IMG/VR virus record: IMGVR_UViG_3300031951_000855
Coordinates: 1 to 30,130 of that record
DNA length: 30,130 nt
Source of the DNA: a virus
Direction: 5' to 3' (one strand)
A program made the translations under genes and the position numbers. A model generated the notes under the pieces. It had not been told where the DNA came from. It saw nothing but the letters and a program-made list of their open reading frames with translations, and searched no databases. Every line of letters begins with the position of its first letter. Position 1 is the first letter of the stretch. Positions 4,100-18,842 of the stretch are shown here, in pieces.

Positions 4100-4344
4100 G
4101 TCAACTTTATTCTGCCCCCTACCACGTACTCTCAAGACATTCGAAAAAAATGGATTCGATCTTTAAGAAACATTCTCTCGAATGGGAAGTTGAGGAAGTC
4201 CTAACCACTGATGACAATGGCAACCCGAAAGAGGTTGCCGGAACCCTTACAGGTGAATTGCATAACCTCAAAAGCTTCTTCAAAGGAGCGGGGTTCAGTG
4301 TGTCTGAAGTAACGGCTATGGTAACCAAATATGACAACACTTAA
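4096..4344 (+). CDS. Hypothetical early protein, 82 aa
   Basis: ATG 4096 is chosen over an in-frame ATG at 4072 because a strong AAAGGAGG sits just before it and it overlaps the upstream stop. The protein has a Lys/His-rich N-terminal half and a small hydrophobic C-terminus. No family is recognised. It overlaps the start of the XRE regulator by 14 nt, so it may be co-expressed with the regulator. Confidence 0.7.
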   Translation: MSQLYSAPYHVLSRHSKKMDSIFKKHSLEWEVEEVLTTDDNGNPKEVAGTLTGELHNLKSFFKGAGFSVSEVTAMVTKYDNT

Positions 4345-4765
4345 GCAACTCAGGAAGGGGCGGGGCATCTCTCAGGGTGCCCTTGCCCAACTCCTTCAGG
4401 AGAAGAGGGGCGGGAAGGGTTTGCAAGGTCCGATTTCGGTCATCGAAGCCGGAAAGATCTCACCCACCGTCAAGAGACTAGCGGACATATTAGATGCCCT
4501 TGGATACCGTCTAGAATTGACAGCCAAGACTCGGGGTGCTGCCCCGATACCCCTAGACCTAGCGTCTTTGCTAGGAAACGGACCGGGAAAAACTCCAGCC
4601 GAAGGTCCCCCGCGCGGAAAGGATGCCCCCGAAAAGGAAGCCAACGCCCTGGAAGCTACTCCAAACCAGAGCTCCGAAGTTCCCTTGGAAAACCCCATAG
4701 AGACTTCCCCGGTTCAAAATGTTGAAGGACTAGAATCGTTACTTTTGACGATTCTAAACAAATAG
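4331..4765 (+). CDS. XRE-type helix-turn-helix regulator, 144 aa
   Basis: Residues 3-65 fit the Cro/C1 (XRE) fold: LKQLRKGRGISQGALAQLL, then a loop, ISVIEAGKISPTVKRLADIL, then ALGYRLELTAK. The pattern 'S-Q-x-x-L-A ... S-x-I-E-x-G-K-x-x-P-x-x-x-x-L' is diagnostic. The first two helices are separated by a slightly extended Gly/Lys-rich insert. Residues ~75-144 are Pro/Ala/Glu-rich and probably disordered, with a short hydrophobic tail (GLESLLLTILN) that could mediate oligomerisation. A perfect 16-bp palindrome (4763-4778) overlaps its stop and could be an operator. No integrase is in the window, so an early-gene switch is as likely as a lysogeny repressor. Confidence 0.85.
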   Translation: MTTLKQLRKGRGISQGALAQLLQEKRGGKGLQGPISVIEAGKISPTVKRLADILDALGYRLELTAKTRGAAPIPLDLASLLGNGPGKTPAEGPPRGKDAPEKEANALEATPNQSSEVPLENPIETSPVQNVEGLESLLLTILNK

Positions 4766-4778
4766 GGTTCGAACCCTA
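4763..4778. promoter_or_regulatory. Perfect 16-bp palindrome after the XRE gene
   Basis: TAGGGTTC followed by GAACCCTA, perfectly two-fold symmetric, with the XRE gene's stop codon inside it. The size and symmetry suit a dimeric HTH protein. The core GGTTCGAACC also matches a tRNA T-arm, but no acceptor or other arms surround it. Confidence 0.45.
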
Positions 4779-4793
4779 AAGAGAGGACTAACT

Positions 4794-4979
4794 ATGAAAA
4801 CCAAACCATTTAAATATCTAAAGCATAAGGGACTAACCATTTACATTGATTGGAGCATACCCGGTGAGCTCACTGTAGACACTTGGGGCAAGGACTCCGA
4901 GGGCAAGACCTGGACTCTGAAAACTCCAGTCAAGAAAACCCCTCCCAAGAAGACTACCCGTGCGCAAAGGATGCGCTGA
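4794..4979 (+). CDS. Small basic protein, 61 aa
   Basis: ATG follows GAGGACTAAC (4783-4792). Residues 1-40 look beta-stranded (YLKHKGLTIYIDWSIPGELTVDTW). The last 20 are Lys/Pro/Arg-rich (VKKTPPKKTTRAQRMR), suggesting nucleic-acid contact. The final codons are formed by the first copy of a hairpin repeat (4962-4976), so the C-terminus may be shaped by that DNA element. The function is unknown. It is the last gene of the rightward cluster and faces the leftward tRNA-like gene. Confidence 0.6.
   Translation: MKTKPFKYLKHKGLTIYIDWSIPGELTVDTWGKDSEGKTWTLKTPVKKTPPKKTTRAQRMR
4962..4976. repeat. GCGCA-AAGGA-TGCGC hairpin repeat, copy 1
   Basis: Perfect 5-bp arms GCGCA/TGCGC around the loop AAGGA, at the 3' end of the 4794-4979 gene. 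The same unit recurs at 5092-5105 and 5627-5641. Confidence 0.75.
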
Positions 4980-4983
4980 AGAA

Positions 4984-5062
4984 TGGCAAGGGGAGAGGGA
5001 CTCGAACCCTCCACTGACCAACCCGTTTCGGTGGCTGCTCTCGACCCCTGAGCTATCCCCCT
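4984..5062 (-). tRNA. tRNA-like gene with encoded CCA and an atypical anticodon arm
   Basis: Read on the minus strand from 5062: a 7-bp acceptor stem (AGGGGGA with TCCCCTT, one G.U), TA at 8-9, a D-arm stem GCTC/GAGC, a perfect T-arm GAGGG-TTCGAGT-CCCTC, discriminator G and an encoded CCA. These fit a tRNA well. The anticodon region does not. No standard 5-bp stem with a 7-nt loop carrying U33 can be drawn; the nearest reading is CCGAAAC, which would give GAA (Phe) with C in place of U33. The arm instead folds as an extended hairpin. It is either a decayed or unusual tRNA, or a tRNA mimic. Its 5' end overlaps the stop of the 5053-5304 gene. Confidence 0.6.
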
Positions 5063-5304
5063 TTGGGTAGACTATCTCGCCGAGCGTTCGCGCGCAAAGG
5101 ATGCACGGGTCTAGTTCGGTACATTTTAAAAAGATCCTTCATGGCTTGAATAACAAAAGGGTCAGAAGTTTGACTCAATACATGACTTTTTATGTACGAC
5201 CTGGTGTATTTTACATGGGGGTAGGACTTGTCATTTAGTAGGTCAAAAGCGAGGTCACCGACGGGTGATGGGTCATTTTTCAGGGCAGATAGAAATTTTT
5301 TCAT
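5053..5304 (-). CDS. YozE-like small helical protein, 83 aa
   Basis: Residues 1-65 resemble the YozE SAM-like helical domain: FLSALKNDPSPVGDLAFDLL, then a D-x-x-YP segment, an aromatic Y-I turn, and a last helix (AMKDLFKMY). That family is small and of unknown function. ATG 5304 has GGAG upstream. The last ~18 residues (RPVHPLRANARRDSLPKGG) look non-native. They are encoded by the hairpin repeat at 5092-5105 and by the 5' end of the tRNA-like gene, which suggests the original stop was lost by rearrangement. Confidence 0.65.
   Translation of the reverse strand: MKKFLSALKNDPSPVGDLAFDLLNDKSYPHVKYTRSYIKSHVLSQTSDPFVIQAMKDLFKMYRTRPVHPLRANARRDSLPKGG
5092..5105. repeat. GCGCA-AAGGA-TGCAC hairpin repeat, copy 2
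   Basis: Second copy of the unit, with one arm mismatch, inside the last codons of the minus-strand 5053-5304 gene. Confidence 0.7.
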
Positions 5305-5586
5305 GTCTTCATCTCCAATATAACTATAGCAGGGCAGATAGGGCAGATAGGGCAGATATTTGCCTGAAAGTAATACAGCGTTTGTAGCTCGCTGTACACC
5401 CCTCTAGCTATATTCTTATAACTAAAGTTATATATATTATCTGTCCTATGTGCCCTATATAGGTAAGTACTATGTAACTACTAAGAAATTACAGGGCAGA
5501 TGGGTCAAAATCTATCTGCCCTGATCTGCCCTATCTGCCCTTGAACCCCCGATCCACCGACTCAACTATCCACGCACCCCCCAAAC
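5305..5586. other. Candidate replication origin: inverted iterons around an AT-rich palindromic core
   Basis: Three tandem GGGCAGATA units at 5332-5358 (another at 5283-5291) face inverted units TATCTGCCC at 5513-5521 and 5532-5540, with GATCTGCCC between them. A lone forward copy lies near 5494. The intervening ~150 bp is AT-rich and holds the palindromes TATAACT-AA-AGTTATA (5417-5432) and CCTATATAGG (5454-5463). No gene fits here, and the primase-helicase gene lies next to it. Iterons plus an AT-rich unwinding region beside the initiator gene are the usual design of a phage or plasmid origin. Function is inferred. Confidence 0.55.
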
Positions 5587-5617
5587 AAAAAACCCCCCGA
5601 GCCACCGACTCGGAGGG
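5587..5617 (-). terminator. Intrinsic terminator of the primase-helicase gene
   Basis: On the minus strand, CCCTCCGAG pairs with CTCGGGGGG (one mismatch) around a short loop and is followed by TTTTTTG. It lies 24 nt past the primase-helicase stop codon. Confidence 0.8.
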
Positions 5618-5626
5618 TCTTCATAC

Positions 5627-5641
5627 ACGCAAAGGATGCGC
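5627..5641. repeat. ACGCA-AAGGA-TGCGC hairpin repeat, copy 3
   Basis: Third copy of the unit, immediately after the stop codon of the primase-helicase and before its terminator. The arms are 4 bp (CGCA/TGCG). Confidence 0.7.
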
Positions 5642-7938
5642 TACATATCTTGAGTTATTCTTTGGTCGGTATCTGAGATGTCTTTAGCGAACACCAAGTA
5701 CCCTCGAACTCCTCTCTCTTTGGTCCTATCGACTTTGAGATGGGCTAGTGTAGCTCGTAGGCGTGTGAAGTCGCCTCTGGTTGGGTTCTTGATCTGGAAG
5801 GATTCGAGGATATTTAGGGAAGATCTAAAGGAGGGCAGCATTTTTTGTTTCTCGCCTTCCTCTTTAGAATAGTAGCGTTCCAGGAACATTTCCTCGAATG
5901 GATCGGTGGCTTGGAATTCCATGTTATGGGTATTGAGCTGTTTCATTTCCTCAGTTGTGAGGAAGTGGCTCTCGCCTTTTTTCCATAGGAGGTAGAACTC
6001 AGCCCAAACTTGTTGCATGGGCAGGCCGTGGGTATGGTTGATGGAGGTACACTCAATCGTCCAAAACCTCCGGTTCCCCGTAGGGTCGCTTAGGTAGTCC
6101 ATTTGGTTGACGGATGCGAAGAAGACGGTGCGACGGGCGAACTCGGAGGTTTTACGGCCATAGGCTAGGCGTAGGATGTCGGTGTCTTTGGTCAGGAAGG
6201 CTTTGAGCTGGGCGATGTCGGCCTTTCTGAAGGTGGCATCGACTTCTCCGAGTTCGACGAGCCAGTTGGTCACGCATTGGTATACGCTGTCTTTGTCTTT
6301 AGGGTCGAGCATCATACCGTCTTTGGTGACTTCGAGTTCTGCTGGGACGAGTTCTTTGAACCATTTGGTTTTGCCGAGGTATTGCTCGCCCTGGAGGACG
6401 AGGATGCCGGAGCCGGCCGAGCCGTTAGGGGAGAACGCTGCTGCGATAGCGGAGAGCATCCACTTCTTCATGAGAGTCCGCTTTAGGGCTTCGTCGCCTG
6501 GTTTGGTTCGGATGGTTTCGTAGAACTGTTCAAAGCGGCTAACACCGTCCCATTCGGTTCCGGTAATCCACCGAGCCACGGGGTTGACGGGGTTTTGTCC
6601 GGCGAGGTAGCTGACAAATTCTTCGATGTCGCCACGGGGGATGCGGTGTTGCTTGGCGAGGGAGACGATGTGGGTGAGTCGGCCTTCTTTGGCGGTGTCC
6701 TTTAGGAAGCTAGTGGAGGGGATGCTTATTTGAACGTCCTTTTTGATGACATCGTAGGCGATGGTAATTCCATAAGCTTCGGTGAGGGCTTTGATGTTTG
6801 CGACGGTGGACAGGGGGCCTGACTTGGCCATGTCTGGGAAGTTGGGGGTACTTAAATCCCCCGAGCCATTGGTAGAGACCGGGTTAGGTGACTCGGGGGA
6901 CGCTACGGGCTGTGAGGCTCGCTTGCTTGGGTCTAGTTTAGCGTAGAGTTTGCAGGAGTTGGAGCAGAACTTTTGCTTGATTTTCGAGTAGCATCCATAG
7001 GAGTAGGCTGCTTTTCCGGAATACGCATCCGAGATAGCTCGGAGGTAGTCTCGCTCGTAGCGGTCAGAAATGCCTTGGGTTTCGCAGAAGGTGCGGAGCT
7101 TCTCTTCGGTAAAGGAGCGTGGTTCGCCTCGGTGGAAGTACTCGGAGATGAGAGCTAGAGCGGTCTCGTGGCGAGCGCCTTCCTTGTGTTTGGTGGTTTC
7201 GAGAGCCGAGATGCAGGGCTTTTCCTTAAAGGAGGCGAAGACGTTCGACTCGGGGGTTGAGGTCAGGCCGTAGTCGGAGGGTTTCAAAGCCACCGAGCCG
7301 CTCGGTCTAACGGAACCTTTGGCGTACTTGGTGGTAGGGGTGACGTAGGATGCGAGGCTCGTAGGGTGTGGCTGCTTTGCCAGGGTGCGGATGTCGTCGA
7401 GAGGTAGGGCTTCCAACTGATCGAGCGTCAGCTCTACTTTGTAGAGTCCTGTTTTGGGGTGGCGGGAGTTGGGGATGCGCATTTTGCGGTTGGCTTGGTA
7501 GATCGAGTCGTCGAGCGTCGGGAGGTCGTGGGCTTTGGCGATTTCAAGGGCGATGCGTTCGAAGTCTTTAGCGACGGTTTGGCTCGGGGTGAGTGGGAAG
7601 AACTCTTGCCTGACGTAGAGGTGGAAGCCTTTTGAGCCGCTAAAAAAGATTTTATATGTGCCAGATTCAAGCCCGAGCTTTTGAATAGTGGTGAGGCAGT
7701 CAAGTCGAGCAAGCTCCACGTCTTCGGAAGAGTCGAAATCAAAGACATAATAGCCGAGTGCGGGTTGGAGGCATCCTTGGTACTGCTTGAAGGTGTCTCT
7801 TGGTTCGAGGTCGAAGAGGCAGTAGTAACCCTCCGAGCCGCTGAAGTTTTGGATCTTGTCTTGTAGCTCTTCGGCATTGACGTGTCCTTTGGTGAGTGGC
7901 GTGTTTAATGTCGGTACAATGTAGTTGATGAGTTTCAT
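5641..7938 (-). CDS. AEP primase fused to VapE/VirE-type superfamily 3-like helicase, 765 aa
   Basis: Bifunctional replication protein. Residues ~30-190 are an archaeo-eukaryotic primase domain with metal-binding YVFDFDSS (D67, D69) and SGSKGFH (100-106). Cys 242, 316, 325 and 329 (PCI, YGC, FCSNSC) form a probable metal or Fe-S site, as in related primases. A low-complexity linker (about 340-375) leads to a VapE-family ATPase: Walker A GEQYLGKTKW (517-526), Walker B NWLVELGEVD (558-567), and ASVNQ...SDPTGNRRFW (608-626) with the polar sensor and arginine finger. ATG 7938 follows GGGGACTAAT, a variant of the phage ribosome-binding cassette. A promoter-like site lies upstream (7971-7998) and a terminator downstream. 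It probably initiates replication near the iterons at 5305-5586. Confidence 0.9.
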   Translation of the reverse strand: MKLINYIVPTLNTPLTKGHVNAEELQDKIQNFSGSEGYYCLFDLEPRDTFKQYQGCLQPALGYYVFDFDSSEDVELARLDCLTTIQKLGLESGTYKIFFSGSKGFHLYVRQEFFPLTPSQTVAKDFERIALEIAKAHDLPTLDDSIYQANRKMRIPNSRHPKTGLYKVELTLDQLEALPLDDIRTLAKQPHPTSLASYVTPTTKYAKGSVRPSGSVALKPSDYGLTSTPESNVFASFKEKPCISALETTKHKEGARHETALALISEYFHRGEPRSFTEEKLRTFCETQGISDRYERDYLRAISDAYSGKAAYSYGCYSKIKQKFCSNSCKLYAKLDPSKRASQPVASPESPNPVSTNGSGDLSTPNFPDMAKSGPLSTVANIKALTEAYGITIAYDVIKKDVQISIPSTSFLKDTAKEGRLTHIVSLAKQHRIPRGDIEEFVSYLAGQNPVNPVARWITGTEWDGVSRFEQFYETIRTKPGDEALKRTLMKKWMLSAIAAAFSPNGSAGSGILVLQGEQYLGKTKWFKELVPAELEVTKDGMMLDPKDKDSVYQCVTNWLVELGEVDATFRKADIAQLKAFLTKDTDILRLAYGRKTSEFARRTVFFASVNQMDYLSDPTGNRRFWTIECTSINHTHGLPMQQVWAEFYLLWKKGESHFLTTEEMKQLNTHNMEFQATDPFEEMFLERYYSKEEGEKQKMLPSFRSSLNILESFQIKNPTRGDFTRLRATLAHLKVDRTKERGVRGYLVFAKDISDTDQRITQDM

Positions 7939-10527: not shown

Positions 10528-10613
10528 AATATTTACAGATAGGGCTTTTGACTTACGCAGTAGTTAGTTTGATCCTAATTGCAGTGTGGTTTGTGGATGA
10601 GTTCATACTATGA
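10524..10613 (+). CDS. Single-pass membrane micro-protein, 29 aa
   Basis: ATG overlaps the previous stop and its stop overlaps the ATG of the PAPS-reductase-like gene. It is nearly all hydrophobic (IGLLTYAVVSLILIAVWFV) with acidic residues after the segment. It resembles the 27-aa protein at 12728-12811 (GFLTFAVVLVVYYL), suggesting a duplicated micro-gene. The function is unknown. Confidence 0.5.
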   Translation: MKYLQIGLLTYAVVSLILIAVWFVDEFIL

Positions 10614-11344
10614 GAAACGTATCTTGGTTTAGCTGTGGAGCAGCTTCTGCTGTAGCCACTAAAAAAGCCCTTGAAAAGTACGGCGCTGAGAACTTTATCA
10701 TCGCCTCCTGCGTTGTCGAGAACGAACACCCCGACAATGAACGCTTCTTGCAGGATTGTGAGAAGTGGTATGGGATGCCCATTCTTAGACTGCGGTCGGA
10801 GAAGTACAAAGACTGCTGGGAAGTATGGGAAAAGACCAAGTATCTAGTCGGCCCTATGGGTGCGCGTTGTACTACCGAGATGAAGAAGCTTGTCAGGCAG
10901 CGGTTCCAAAAGGTTAGTGATAAACAGATCTTTGGATTTACAGCAGAGGAAAACCACCGGGCCGACCGCTTCAGAGAACAGAACCCAGAGGTAGATTTGT
11001 CCACTCCTCTTATTGATCTTGGGTTGACCAAGAAGGATTGCTTCATTGAACTTCAGAAGGCAGGGATTGAACTTCCTGCTATGTATAAACTCGGATACAA
11101 GAACAACAACTGTGTCGGCTGCGTCAAAGGTGGTGCAAAGTATTGGTCGTCGATTCGGAGGGATTTCCCAGATGTATTTAAAAAGATGGGAGAGCTTGAA
11201 CGAAAGCTTGATGTGAAGATTTTAAAGGTTAAGGGTAAGCGTATATTTTTAGACGAGCTGCCACTTAATTATCGCAGCAACCAGGTAGAGCCTGACATGG
11301 AGTGTGGCCTTTGGTGTAAAGGAGATGACAATGGAGCAGAGTGA
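10610..11344 (+). CDS. PAPS reductase-like / PP-loop enzyme, 244 aa
   Basis: Adenine nucleotide alpha-hydrolase fold: the N-terminal SWFSCGAASAVATKKAL is a PP-loop (S-G-x-x-S type), CVVENEHPDNERFL is the usual second strand, and GARCTTEMKK is the PAPS-reductase-type region. C-terminal NNCVGCVKGG provides a Cys pair that with other Cys may hold an Fe-S cluster. Phages often carry such genes; proposed roles include sulfur transfer or DNA modification (DndC is a relative), but the substrate cannot be read. It continues the ATGA-coupled chain, and its last codons hold the AAGGAG of the next gene. Confidence 0.85.
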   Translation: MRNVSWFSCGAASAVATKKALEKYGAENFIIASCVVENEHPDNERFLQDCEKWYGMPILRLRSEKYKDCWEVWEKTKYLVGPMGARCTTEMKKLVRQRFQKVSDKQIFGFTAEENHRADRFREQNPEVDLSTPLIDLGLTKKDCFIELQKAGIELPAMYKLGYKNNNCVGCVKGGAKYWSSIRRDFPDVFKKMGELERKLDVKILKVKGKRIFLDELPLNYRSNQVEPDMECGLWCKGDDNGAE

Positions 11345-16119: not shown

Positions 16120-16836
16120 ATGCACGGGTTATTCTTAGATTTTGAAGCAACAGACAAAGACGTAAAGACAGCACGGATTACTCAGATTGCGTTCAGTGTT
16201 TGGGACACTGAAGATAAAAAAGAGCTTTTTCACTACAGTTCGTTGATACTTCCAGAGGGGGAGTATGAGATAGATCCGGTTGCGGCTAGAATCACGGGCA
16301 TCTCAAAAGAACAACTTGAACGATTCGGAATTGCGCTTTCTAAAGCTCTTGATGTTTTGGGGCGGCATCTTAGTGGGGTGGATTTTCTTGCAGCTCATAA
16401 CCTGCATAATTATGATTATCCCCTATTAACCAATGAGATGTTGCGGATCGGCAGGGATGCGTTTCAGCTTCCGCAGTTAGTAGATACCAGGTTCGATATA
16501 CCGTGGCCTGAGCATATCGAAACTCGGAAGCTGACGTATCTAGCCGCAGAGTTCGGCATCGTGAACCCTTCGGCCCACAGTGCTAGGCATGACGTGGATC
16601 TAATGGCGAAGCTATTCTTCATGTTCCCCATCGAGGTGACTATGGAGCGAGCCAAAAGCCCACAGATCTGGGTGCGGGCCAATGTAAGCTACGACCACCG
16701 GGAGAAGGCGAAGGCTCGCAAGTTCCTCTGGGACGGAGGCAACAAGTGGTGGGTCAAGTTATTCAAGCAGTGCGACTTTGAAAAAGAGACGTTTGAATTT
16801 CCAACCATAATTCTAAAGGACTATAAGGGGCCATGA
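16120..16836 (+). CDS. DnaQ-like DEDDh 3'-5' exonuclease, 238 aa
   Basis: Exo I LDFEAT near the N-terminus, Exo II in AAHNLHNYDYPLL and Exo III HSARHDVDLMAKLF (H-x4-D) are the complete DEDDh set. The C-terminal ~60 residues (KARKFLWDGGNKWWVKLF) are an extra Trp/Lys-rich module seen in some ExoX-like proteins. It may trim 3' ends in recombination or proofread. This is notable because the polymerase right after it has its own exonuclease domain. The stop overlaps the polymerase ATG. GGGGGA precedes its start. Confidence 0.88.
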   Translation: MHGLFLDFEATDKDVKTARITQIAFSVWDTEDKKELFHYSSLILPEGEYEIDPVAARITGISKEQLERFGIALSKALDVLGRHLSGVDFLAAHNLHNYDYPLLTNEMLRIGRDAFQLPQLVDTRFDIPWPEHIETRKLTYLAAEFGIVNPSAHSARHDVDLMAKLFFMFPIEVTMERAKSPQIWVRANVSYDHREKAKARKFLWDGGNKWWVKLFKQCDFEKETFEFPTIILKDYKGP

Positions 16837-18842
16837 TTGTTACTACTGAGGACTTTGAAAGCAGCGTTGAAACTATCCGTAATTGTACTTCTCTCAGCCT
16901 TGACACAGAGACAAGCGGCCTCCGACCTTATCATGGTGATAGGCTTTTCGCTATTACGGCTGCTGGAGCTTTCGGTGAGCTTTATTTTGGGTTTGGTGCT
17001 TCAGGCTTAGACCATGCACTAATCCCCCGAATCTACGATGCAGTGAAGGGTAAGACAGTTGCATTTGCGAACGCCAAGTTCGATATGCACTTTCTATGTA
17101 ATGAAGGTTGGGGGACCGATTATGAACCGTGGGATATTCTGGTTGTCGATAAGTGTATTTACAATAGGCATCTATCATACAGCCTCAATGCCGTGGCTGA
17201 ACGGATGGGCTTTGGGTCTAAAGATGGAGGAGTTATGGCCTACATCAGCGAACACGGTCTATACGACAAAGAGGAAATACCGGGGAAAAAGACGGTCAAG
17301 AAGAACCCCCGATTCGACCGAGTCCCCTTGGAGATTATCTCAAAGTACGCCCTGCAAGATGCACGGCTTACCTATCAGATTTACGAAGCACAGCTTGTAA
17401 AAGTGCAGGAGTTGACGGAGAAGTATTCCAAGATTAAAGGCTACCCGGTGCGGTTTTCAGATCTCGTAGCAGATGAGAGAAAGCTCACTAAGGTGTTGTT
17501 TGACATTGAACGCAGAGGAATGGGGTTAGATCGTGGCTACATCGAAAAAGCAAAGAAGAGGGAAGAGTACAGGATCAACAAAGCGAAAGCGAAGTTCACC
17601 GAACTTACTGGCGCAGAGCTTGTTGACAGCAATAAACAGTTATCCCAGATCTTCGGAGCAAATGGGATTGTGGGAGGTACTACCGCTAAGGGCAATGCAA
17701 GCTATACAGACGCAGTTCTCGAAACCATCGAACACCCCATCGCAGGAGTAATCCGTGAGTACCGAGATGCCACCAAACGACTCAACACCTATTACAATAA
17801 TTTTACCTATTGCGGAGATAAAGAAGGAGTTGTGCGCCCTTCTATCAGACAAACTGCCGCAGACACCTTTAGATTCTCTATCACCGACCCTGCACTTCAA
17901 ACTCTTAACAGTGAGGACGATGGAGACTGGAGGGTTCGGGATTCATTTAGGGCTCGACAAGGTTTCGTTTACATTTCCATCGACTACCAAGCCCAAGAGT
18001 ACCGCCTTACGGCTGATTACGCCGGAGAACGAGGGCTCATCCAACAAATTAACGAAGGAGTAGATGTCCACTCCGCAACGGCTAAGATGATGGGGGTAGA
18101 TCGCTATTCAGCCAAGGTGCTGAACTTTGCGCTATTGTATGGTGCAGCAGCGCCGAAAATTGCCACAATGCTGAAGGTATCGGTTGATAAAGCCACCGAG
18201 CTTAAGAATCTATACTTCTCAAAGCTTGGTAGAGTGAGTAGTTTAATTAATAATATCAAATCAACTATTGATAGCCGTGGGTACATCTTCAACTTCGCAG
18301 GGCGGATCTTGCACTTTCCAGTGATCGAGTTCGACCAGGACGGGGTGAAGAAGCGGGGGAACTTTGCGTATAAGGGACCAAACTACATCATCCAATCCTC
18401 CGGTTCGGAGATTATGCGGAGAGCATTGATCGCTGTGGATGGGTTTCTTAAGCCCTATCAGTCTAAGATCGTGCTGTCGATTCACGACGAGTTACTGCTC
18501 GAAATGACAGAGGATGAGCTGTATCTAATCCCCCGAATCAGAGAGCTTATGGTTGGCGTGTATACCCCTAAAAATGGACTACCGATGAGTACATCAGTTG
18601 CCATTGGCGAAAGTTGGGGTAGACTAAACGACATCAATGAAGACGAACTTGCCAAAAGAATCGACGTTCAAAAAGCGTGTGCTGTCGAGACTGCGAAAGC
18701 TGCCACGTACAGTGACGTTCACGATTCAGCAAACGTCGATCAGGGGAACCCCAGACTTGTTGCTTTGTGTGAACGGGAGGTTCGTGGGACTGGAGCTGAA
18801 GCGGAGTCGGACTGCCCCAGCAACCGAGCTACAGCTATATAA
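16833..18842 (+). CDS. Family A DNA polymerase with 3'-5' exonuclease domain, 669 aa
   Basis: The replicative polymerase. The exonuclease domain has LDTETSGL (D24, E26), NAKFDMHFL (D84) and YALQDARLTYQIY (D176). Polymerase motif A is SIDYQAQEYRL (D384), motif B is RYSAKVLNFALLYG (K428, Y436) and motif C is SIHDELLLE (H551, D552, E553). The phenylalanine/tyrosine switch position carries Tyr (LLYG). Family members usually end soon after the S-x-x-W-G segment (here ~residue 596). This frame runs ~70 more residues, and from codon ~602 overprints the N-terminal half of the VRR-NUC gene in another frame. ATG overlaps the exonuclease stop. Confidence 0.95.
   Translation: MIVTTEDFESSVETIRNCTSLSLDTETSGLRPYHGDRLFAITAAGAFGELYFGFGASGLDHALIPRIYDAVKGKTVAFANAKFDMHFLCNEGWGTDYEPWDILVVDKCIYNRHLSYSLNAVAERMGFGSKDGGVMAYISEHGLYDKEEIPGKKTVKKNPRFDRVPLEIISKYALQDARLTYQIYEAQLVKVQELTEKYSKIKGYPVRFSDLVADERKLTKVLFDIERRGMGLDRGYIEKAKKREEYRINKAKAKFTELTGAELVDSNKQLSQIFGANGIVGGTTAKGNASYTDAVLETIEHPIAGVIREYRDATKRLNTYYNNFTYCGDKEGVVRPSIRQTAADTFRFSITDPALQTLNSEDDGDWRVRDSFRARQGFVYISIDYQAQEYRLTADYAGERGLIQQINEGVDVHSATAKMMGVDRYSAKVLNFALLYGAAAPKIATMLKVSVDKATELKNLYFSKLGRVSSLINNIKSTIDSRGYIFNFAGRILHFPVIEFDQDGVKKRGNFAYKGPNYIIQSSGSEIMRRALIAVDGFLKPYQSKIVLSIHDELLLEMTEDELYLIPRIRELMVGVYTPKNGLPMSTSVAIGESWGRLNDINEDELAKRIDVQKACAVETAKAATYSDVHDSANVDQGNPRLVALCEREVRGTGAEAESDCPSNRATAI

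Follow-up and report, generated by a model that had tools for sequence, protein, structure and literature searches.

The replication origin of PICIs lies directly 3′ of the initiator gene and comprises AT-rich DNA flanked by two sets of iterons, according to passages of PMC6092414. Passages of PMC7581432 describe that the SaPI Rep protein recognises its origin via its C-terminal domain and that the C-terminal domain of the SCCmec helicase Cch2 binds direct repeats downstream of its own operon, while a portion of PMC8263062 reports that the origin and the DNA-binding domain of its initiator covary in the PLE satellites as well. In a tailed phage, a comparable place is annotated in the record of the Streptococcus thermophilus phage Sfi21 as 'origin of replication, 302 bp non-coding region, phage inhibitory sequence', directly 3′ of the primase gene. 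When we subjected this origin to a comparable scan as a positive control, it displayed a tandem pair of TAGTTAC on one side of an AT-rich core and an inverted pair on the other, the two facing each other. Phage P4 combines its alpha protein, a fusion of primase, helicase and origin-binding parts, with short iterons at ori and crr, a system that we liken to the present one by description only. Here, we analysed a 30,130-bp virus record (the window), in which positions 5281–5541 very probably represent the replication origin of a tailed phage that employs the 765-aa protein encoded next to it as its own initiator. This reading is supported because the placement, the inverted iteron blocks, the AT-rich core and the adjoining initiator-type primase-helicase all fit.

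The region is built from the 9-bp word GGGCAGATA, exact copies of which start at 5283, 5332, 5341 and 5350 on the plus strand and at 5513 and 5532 on the minus strand and nowhere else in the window, compared to a mean of 0.16 and a largest count of 2 in 100 shuffles of the window. Five of the six lie in the non-coding gap between the stop codon of the 765-aa gene and the start of an 83-aa ORF, and the sixth resides just inside this ORF. The original prediction of three tandem units on one side, inverted units on the other and a further iteron at 5283 within the neighbouring gene was thereby confirmed with exact copies. Close by are copies with one mismatch at 5523, 5438 and 5447 on the minus strand and at 5494 on the plus strand. 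When all 8-mers were considered, the top one by the end of the helicase gene occurred 8 times versus at most 3 times in 500 dinucleotide shuffles, and this cluster is the highest-scoring place of the whole window. The repeats are real, their number being far above chance expectation. Second in score is a tandem array of GGTTCGGG (2404–2443), which is confined to one strand, has an 8-bp period and is located beside repeated GCACCGAG units in a non-coding-looking stretch (2323–2443).

The iterons might instead constitute a binding reservoir or a copy-control site like crr of phage P4, with the true start of replication elsewhere. Another site is possible as the window covers about three quarters of the genome, and the copy number in several lineages exceeds the need of two facing pairs. 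We consider this improbable, since no second inverted cluster of at least four 8-mers was found within the 30-kb window, the facing blocks enclose an AT-rich core and the annotated origin of Sfi21 agrees in place and layout.

Read as an origin, the region can be divided into two facing arms, a core and outer copies. One arm is the block of three tandem GGGCAGATA iterons at 5332–5358 (plus strand), kept as an inverted pair in a relative, L004, whose helicase is 71% identical. The other arm is a degenerate pair, GGACAGATA / GGGCACATA, at 5438–5455 (minus strand), which aligns to a better-matching pair of L004. These nearest facing blocks form an inverted repeat with 79 bp between them, and the corresponding arms of L004 are 88 bp apart. 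Further outward are a single iteron with one mismatch, GGGCAGATG (5494–5502, plus strand), and an outer block of three minus-strand iterons at 5513–5540 (starting at 5513, 5523 with one mismatch, and 5532), the end of which is 100 bp away from the helicase stop codon. On the opposite side, the single plus-strand iteron at 5283–5291 overlaps codons for FLSAL, which are also encoded in L004. Alignment of both origins reveals that the iterons, a TATATAACTTTA stretch and the ribosome-binding region of the next gene are all kept. The original prediction had listed the triple at 5332–5358 and the inverted group at 5513–5540 correctly and had missed the degenerate pair at 5438–5455, perhaps because one of its units (5447–5455) overlaps the palindrome CCTATATAGG. 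Of the two perfect palindromes it had proposed, CCTATATAGG at 5454–5463 is indeed perfect, whereas TATAACTAAAGTTATA at 5417–5432 is imperfect, with 7-bp arms around an AA centre.

The core between the facing blocks (5359–5437), the proposed unwinding element, has an AT fraction of 0.67, which is the 96th percentile for its length in the window. The longer stretch 5359–5493 is likewise 67% AT versus 53% for the window. Hence, AT-rich DNA is enclosed by the iterons as anticipated, though it is not the richest place of the window, four or five others (the number varying with window size) being more AT-rich. The sequence CCCCCGAxCCACCGACTC is present twice beside the origin, at 5546–5563 and 5594–5611. 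The latter copy is contained in a strong hairpin followed by T6 (5588–5622, minus strand), a terminator-like element just past the primase-helicase gene (MFE -29.3 and z -5.1 for the folded 58-nt stretch 5583–5640) that is absent from the list of a simple scan; the former copy is degenerate and folds poorly.

Cumulative GC skew had been suggested as a check on the origin. Its minimum and maximum in the window fall at 2282 and 19299 and not at 5.4 kb, a result confounded by gene direction, and no extreme was found at the site in the relative G001 either. This check thus lends the origin no support. Over the helicase gene (5641–7938), which is on the minus strand, the plus strand has a GC skew of about +0.2 to +0.3, and it retains such a skew over the plus-strand genes located further to the right; this may reflect a leading-strand effect rightward of the origin.

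The 765-aa protein, an AEP-type primase fused to a VapE-like helicase and the proposed initiator, is encoded on the minus strand at 5641–7938, so that its stop codon at 5641 adjoins the repeat region as the original prediction had stated. Pfam matches the VapE-like domain (PF05272) at residues 459–676 with an E value of 3.9e-53 and an AEP primase model at residues 87–118 slightly below the cut-off. A Rep_3/RepA initiator of theta-type iteron plasmids was ruled out, Pfam giving only the VapE-like domain and the sub-threshold AEP match. A profile built from 23 relatives retrieved PDB entry 7pds with an E value of 1.1e-39, and the N-terminus retrieved primases, weakly. The AlphaFold2 model has a mean pLDDT of 72, the helicase and the C-terminus being better, and superimposes on 7pds ('PriRep1 with dsDNA') with a Z score of 25.8 over 380 residues within the span 361–755, followed by NrS-1 (Z 13.8) and the SaPI5 primase-helicase (7om0, Z 12.0). 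For the N-terminus, human Pri1 (Z 9.3) and an archaeal core primase (Z 9.2) were obtained. By profile as well as by fold, the 765-aa protein is a member of the PriRep1/SaPI Rep structural family of initiator helicases.

The last ~85 residues of this protein are modelled as helix, strand, helix, helix and a two-stranded wing, and when the C-terminus was modelled alone, 68 of 100 residues reached a pLDDT above 90. Within it, residues 700–752 (5683–5841, minus strand) are predicted by the structure models to form a winged-helix-like domain, the proposed reader of the iterons. Searched alone against the PDB, the domain yielded no Foldseek match at E ≤ 0.001; the best VIA Z was 5.8, 7pds reached Z 4.5 and the list contained many winged-helix DNA binders. 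These weak matches suggest a winged-helix fold only.

The locus shares with the rep-ori systems of SaPIs and PICIs (PriRep1 and SaPI5 Rep) the fold of the initiator, the position of the origin immediately 3′ of its gene and the two sets of iterons around AT-rich DNA. Unlike them, it belongs to a tailed phage that encodes a DNA polymerase of its own as well as endolysin-like and structural proteins, and the likeness was drawn from fold, place and layout. With Sfi21 it has in common that a tailed phage carries a non-coding origin 3′ of a D5/VapE-type helicase gene and facing iteron pairs (at 8-bp pitch in Sfi21) around an AT-rich core, but the Sfi21 helicase is Pox_D5/DUF5906 and not VapE, is devoid of a primase domain in the Pfam scan and is accompanied by the iteron TAGTTACT. 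The SCCmec Cch2 system is different in its 5-nt AAGTG iterons and its PolA-MP primase and does not belong to a phage.

PICIs are satellites that depend on a helper phage for particles. The window encodes an A-family polymerase (16833–18842), a second DNA helicase, a polymerase-exonuclease-like subunit, a methyltransferase, an endolysin-like protein and virion proteins. It is colinear with G001, a near-complete 41,981-bp contig of a relative that has ~60 bp repeated at its ends and encodes a terminase and a portal; mapped on G001, the window spans about three quarters of a ~41-kb genome with the packaging genes outside of it. Judged by this gene content, the replicon is a tailed phage and not a satellite, and a PICI was rejected as the type of element given PolA, the endolysin-like and structural genes of the window and the terminase and portal of G001. 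The window also harbours an auxiliary metabolic gene resembling phosphoadenosine phosphosulfate reductase (10610–11344), the G001 copy of which is 89% identical. Clustered iterons serve as centromeres too, and the repeats might hence be a partition or packaging signal. This is very unlikely, as the scanned ORFs, which are part of all ORFs of the window, include no recognisable ParA, ParB or terminase, and the repeat cluster is linked to the helicase gene.

At the other edge of the origin starts the 83-aa YozE/SAM-like ORF (5053–5304, minus strand; Pfam match below the cut-off), which is kept in L004 and G001. It has no relatives in a viral pattern scan, whose reach did not include this ORF, and in G001 it is found by tblastn. 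A tRNA-Phe gene (4984–5062, minus strand) follows and, as read by eye, is beside the origin in L004 too. Since the repeats are located upstream of the 83-aa ORF, with one of them within its start, they could be operators through which the helicase or an HTH protein (4331–4765) represses a promoter of this ORF starting at 5304. Iteron initiators often autoregulate, which likewise speaks for such a role. Nevertheless, we regard operators as quite improbable: L005 keeps the cluster, and tblastn, which detects the 83-aa ORF in G001, does not detect it in the L005 stretch; the iteron sequence follows the C-terminus of the helicase; and, as weak evidence, no sigma-70-like promoter was found in 4700–6000.

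A dispersed element, ACGCGCAAAGGATRCG, is found in the same neighbourhood on the strand opposite the helicase, with short inverted arms around AAGGA (4613–4626, 4961–4974, 5091–5104 and 5626–5639 in the window). It amounts to 35 copies in five contigs (the window, G001, L005, L101 and L201), all on one strand. Five weaker two-mismatch matches are excluded from this count, of which two are on that strand in L201 and the remaining three are either located elsewhere or on the opposite strand. Wherever a contig contains the helicase (four of the five), all copies lie within ~3.6 kb 3′ of its gene. In L101, many copies occupy the gap that separates a stop codon from the following RBS and ATG, and others are in an HTH gene in varied frames. 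Most variants are C-to-T changes on the helicase strand, so that, owing to wobble, pairing is better preserved in RNA of this strand than in RNA of the operon strand. The element could be a set of stoperator-like repressor sites or CsrA-like RNA hairpins.

We compared the window with the surroundings of related helicase genes, drawn from 37 loci, 80 more with alignment (the best 80 of 585, hence non-random, one of them repeated) and 8 loci of cultured phages. Left out of the 37 were L014, L022 and L028, which look like near-copies, and the fragments L035, L038 and L040. Together with the window, 119 loci entered the analysis, of which 73 were retained upon removal of 5 without downstream DNA and 41 near-duplicates. 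A cluster, defined as one 8-mer occurring at least four times within 450 bp at the 3′ end of the helicase gene, is present in 38 of the 73 non-redundant loci versus 19 of 987 control blocks taken from these loci, occupies both strands in 36 of the 38 and is the strict top of its locus in 37 of the 73. Where both flanks were available, the cluster is located at the 3′ end in 29 of 56 loci and at the 5′ end in none of the 56. No cluster of at least four exact 8-mers was apparent at the 3′ end of the other 35 of the 73 loci.

Six of the eight cultured-phage loci are without a 3′-end cluster, a clear one being restricted to Acinetobacter phage Alexa and a weak one to Aeromonas phage phiWae15. Escherichia phage ECO1230-10 (L095) and Pseudomonas phage Persinger (L099) have repeat clusters of GGGACTAT and AGTGACCA, respectively, ~2 kb downstream (both at ~6101–6550), in a non-coding gap ahead of a late activator gene, and these are candidates for displaced origins.

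The word itself varies by lineage, with TGCCCCAAG in L005, ATGGTGACA in L007, CAGTGCATC in L008 and AATGACGGT in L101. An exact 16-mer scan of IMG/VR with GGGCAGATAGGGCAGA returned 44 stretches, of which only L072, the contig of L004, contains it twice and on both strands; the others have one match apiece. Facing sites are 60–125 bp apart in 32 of the 40 loci whose word is clear (score at least 4), and the DNA between them falls into the top AT tenth of its own locus in 30 of these 32. A histogram of all gaps looks grouped at about 5–15, 30–50 and 80–115, and the 34–39 bin, picked post hoc, is occupied in 15 of 40 loci versus a null mean of 6.9 with a top null value of 15 in 2000; the scan statistic over all 6-bp bins revealed no preferred block spacing (p 0.37). 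L131 and L171 possess a doubled layout of four tandem iterons, an inverted pair, a facing pair and an inverted single one at nearly equal spacings, composed of different words (GGTTACACT and GGTGGCACT).

Is this variation of the word connected to the protein? Among 38 of the 40 loci with a score of at least 4 (L165 and L175 were dropped beforehand as their iterons were judged unclear), iteron distance correlates with the distance of the C-terminal domain with r 0.47 and with that of the helicase core with r 0.22. In partial Mantel tests, which remove shared ancestry incompletely, the correlation with the C-terminal domain is 0.43 when the core is held constant, a value reached by 0 of 1000 permutations (N 38), compared to -0.007 for the core when the C-terminal domain is held constant. 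Sliding windows of 40 residues give partial correlations near zero or negative over the motor and 0.40 at residues 716–755, which contain the recognition helix and the wing. Similar values were obtained for pairs with divergent cores (0.37, 0/2000; 0.30, 2/2000 at the strictest cut), for 17 thinned loci (0.48, 0/2000) and for the 23 best-scored words (0.47, 0/2000). Single positions are less clean, as residue 678 outside of the winged helix has the highest z (7.0) and several core positions reach z ~4. At the level of these sequence comparisons, the iteron word tracks the recognition helix and wing at the helicase C-terminus and not the motor core.

Tandem units can be enlarged by slippage, and the window has another tandem array with GGTTCGGG (2404–2443), but a chance or neutral expansion is contradicted by the presence of both orientations, the recurrence in 38 of 73 loci and the covariation with the protein, and we deem its probability negligible. 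The iteron origin put forward in the original prediction is supported by its recurrence at the 3′ end in other phages, the AT-rich cores, the covariation of iterons with the C-terminus and the layout of the Sfi21 origin.

Iteron binding, ring loading, melting, priming and direction we infer by analogy with SaPI Rep, Cch2 and the PICIs. The 9-bp iterons would be bound by the C-terminal winged-helix domain of the 765-aa protein, and helicase rings may assemble at the facing tandem blocks 5332–5358 and 5438–5455, with the outer copies acting as putative additional loading or handcuffing sites. The rings would then melt the AT-rich core between the facing blocks, primers would be made by the fused AEP primase, and the A-family polymerase of the phage would extend them, probably bidirectionally.

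This kind of origin is already known from bacterial islands and the dairy phage Sfi21. New are the repeat words, the setting beside an AEP-VapE fusion and the covariation of domain and word across uncultivated phages, for which no prior description was found in a limited search of the open-access literature. We argue that Sfi21 together with the loci presented here renders the layout wider than chromosomal islands. Beyond this, we see about an even chance that a portable and quickly changing origin module is widespread among phages with VapE-like helicases. In such a module, facing 9-bp iterons around an AT-rich core would be fixed, and the word would be rewritten jointly with the adjacent helicase's recognition helix and wing. 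If true, the origin of an uncultivated phage would be readable from its genome, the specificity of the reader would be set largely by ~35 residues, the words may diverge as an escape from competing satellites or defences, and the layout would not be peculiar to PICIs. With this locus, an uncultivated phage group gains a start site that can be put to the test, along with a simple rule by which others can be located. The origin layout known from chromosomal islands is thereby widened to many tailed phages. Because the covariation involves a single small domain, small proteins and short DNA would suffice for a direct test of a reader-word code of these initiators. Origin types common to phages and satellites bear on the competition between them for replication.
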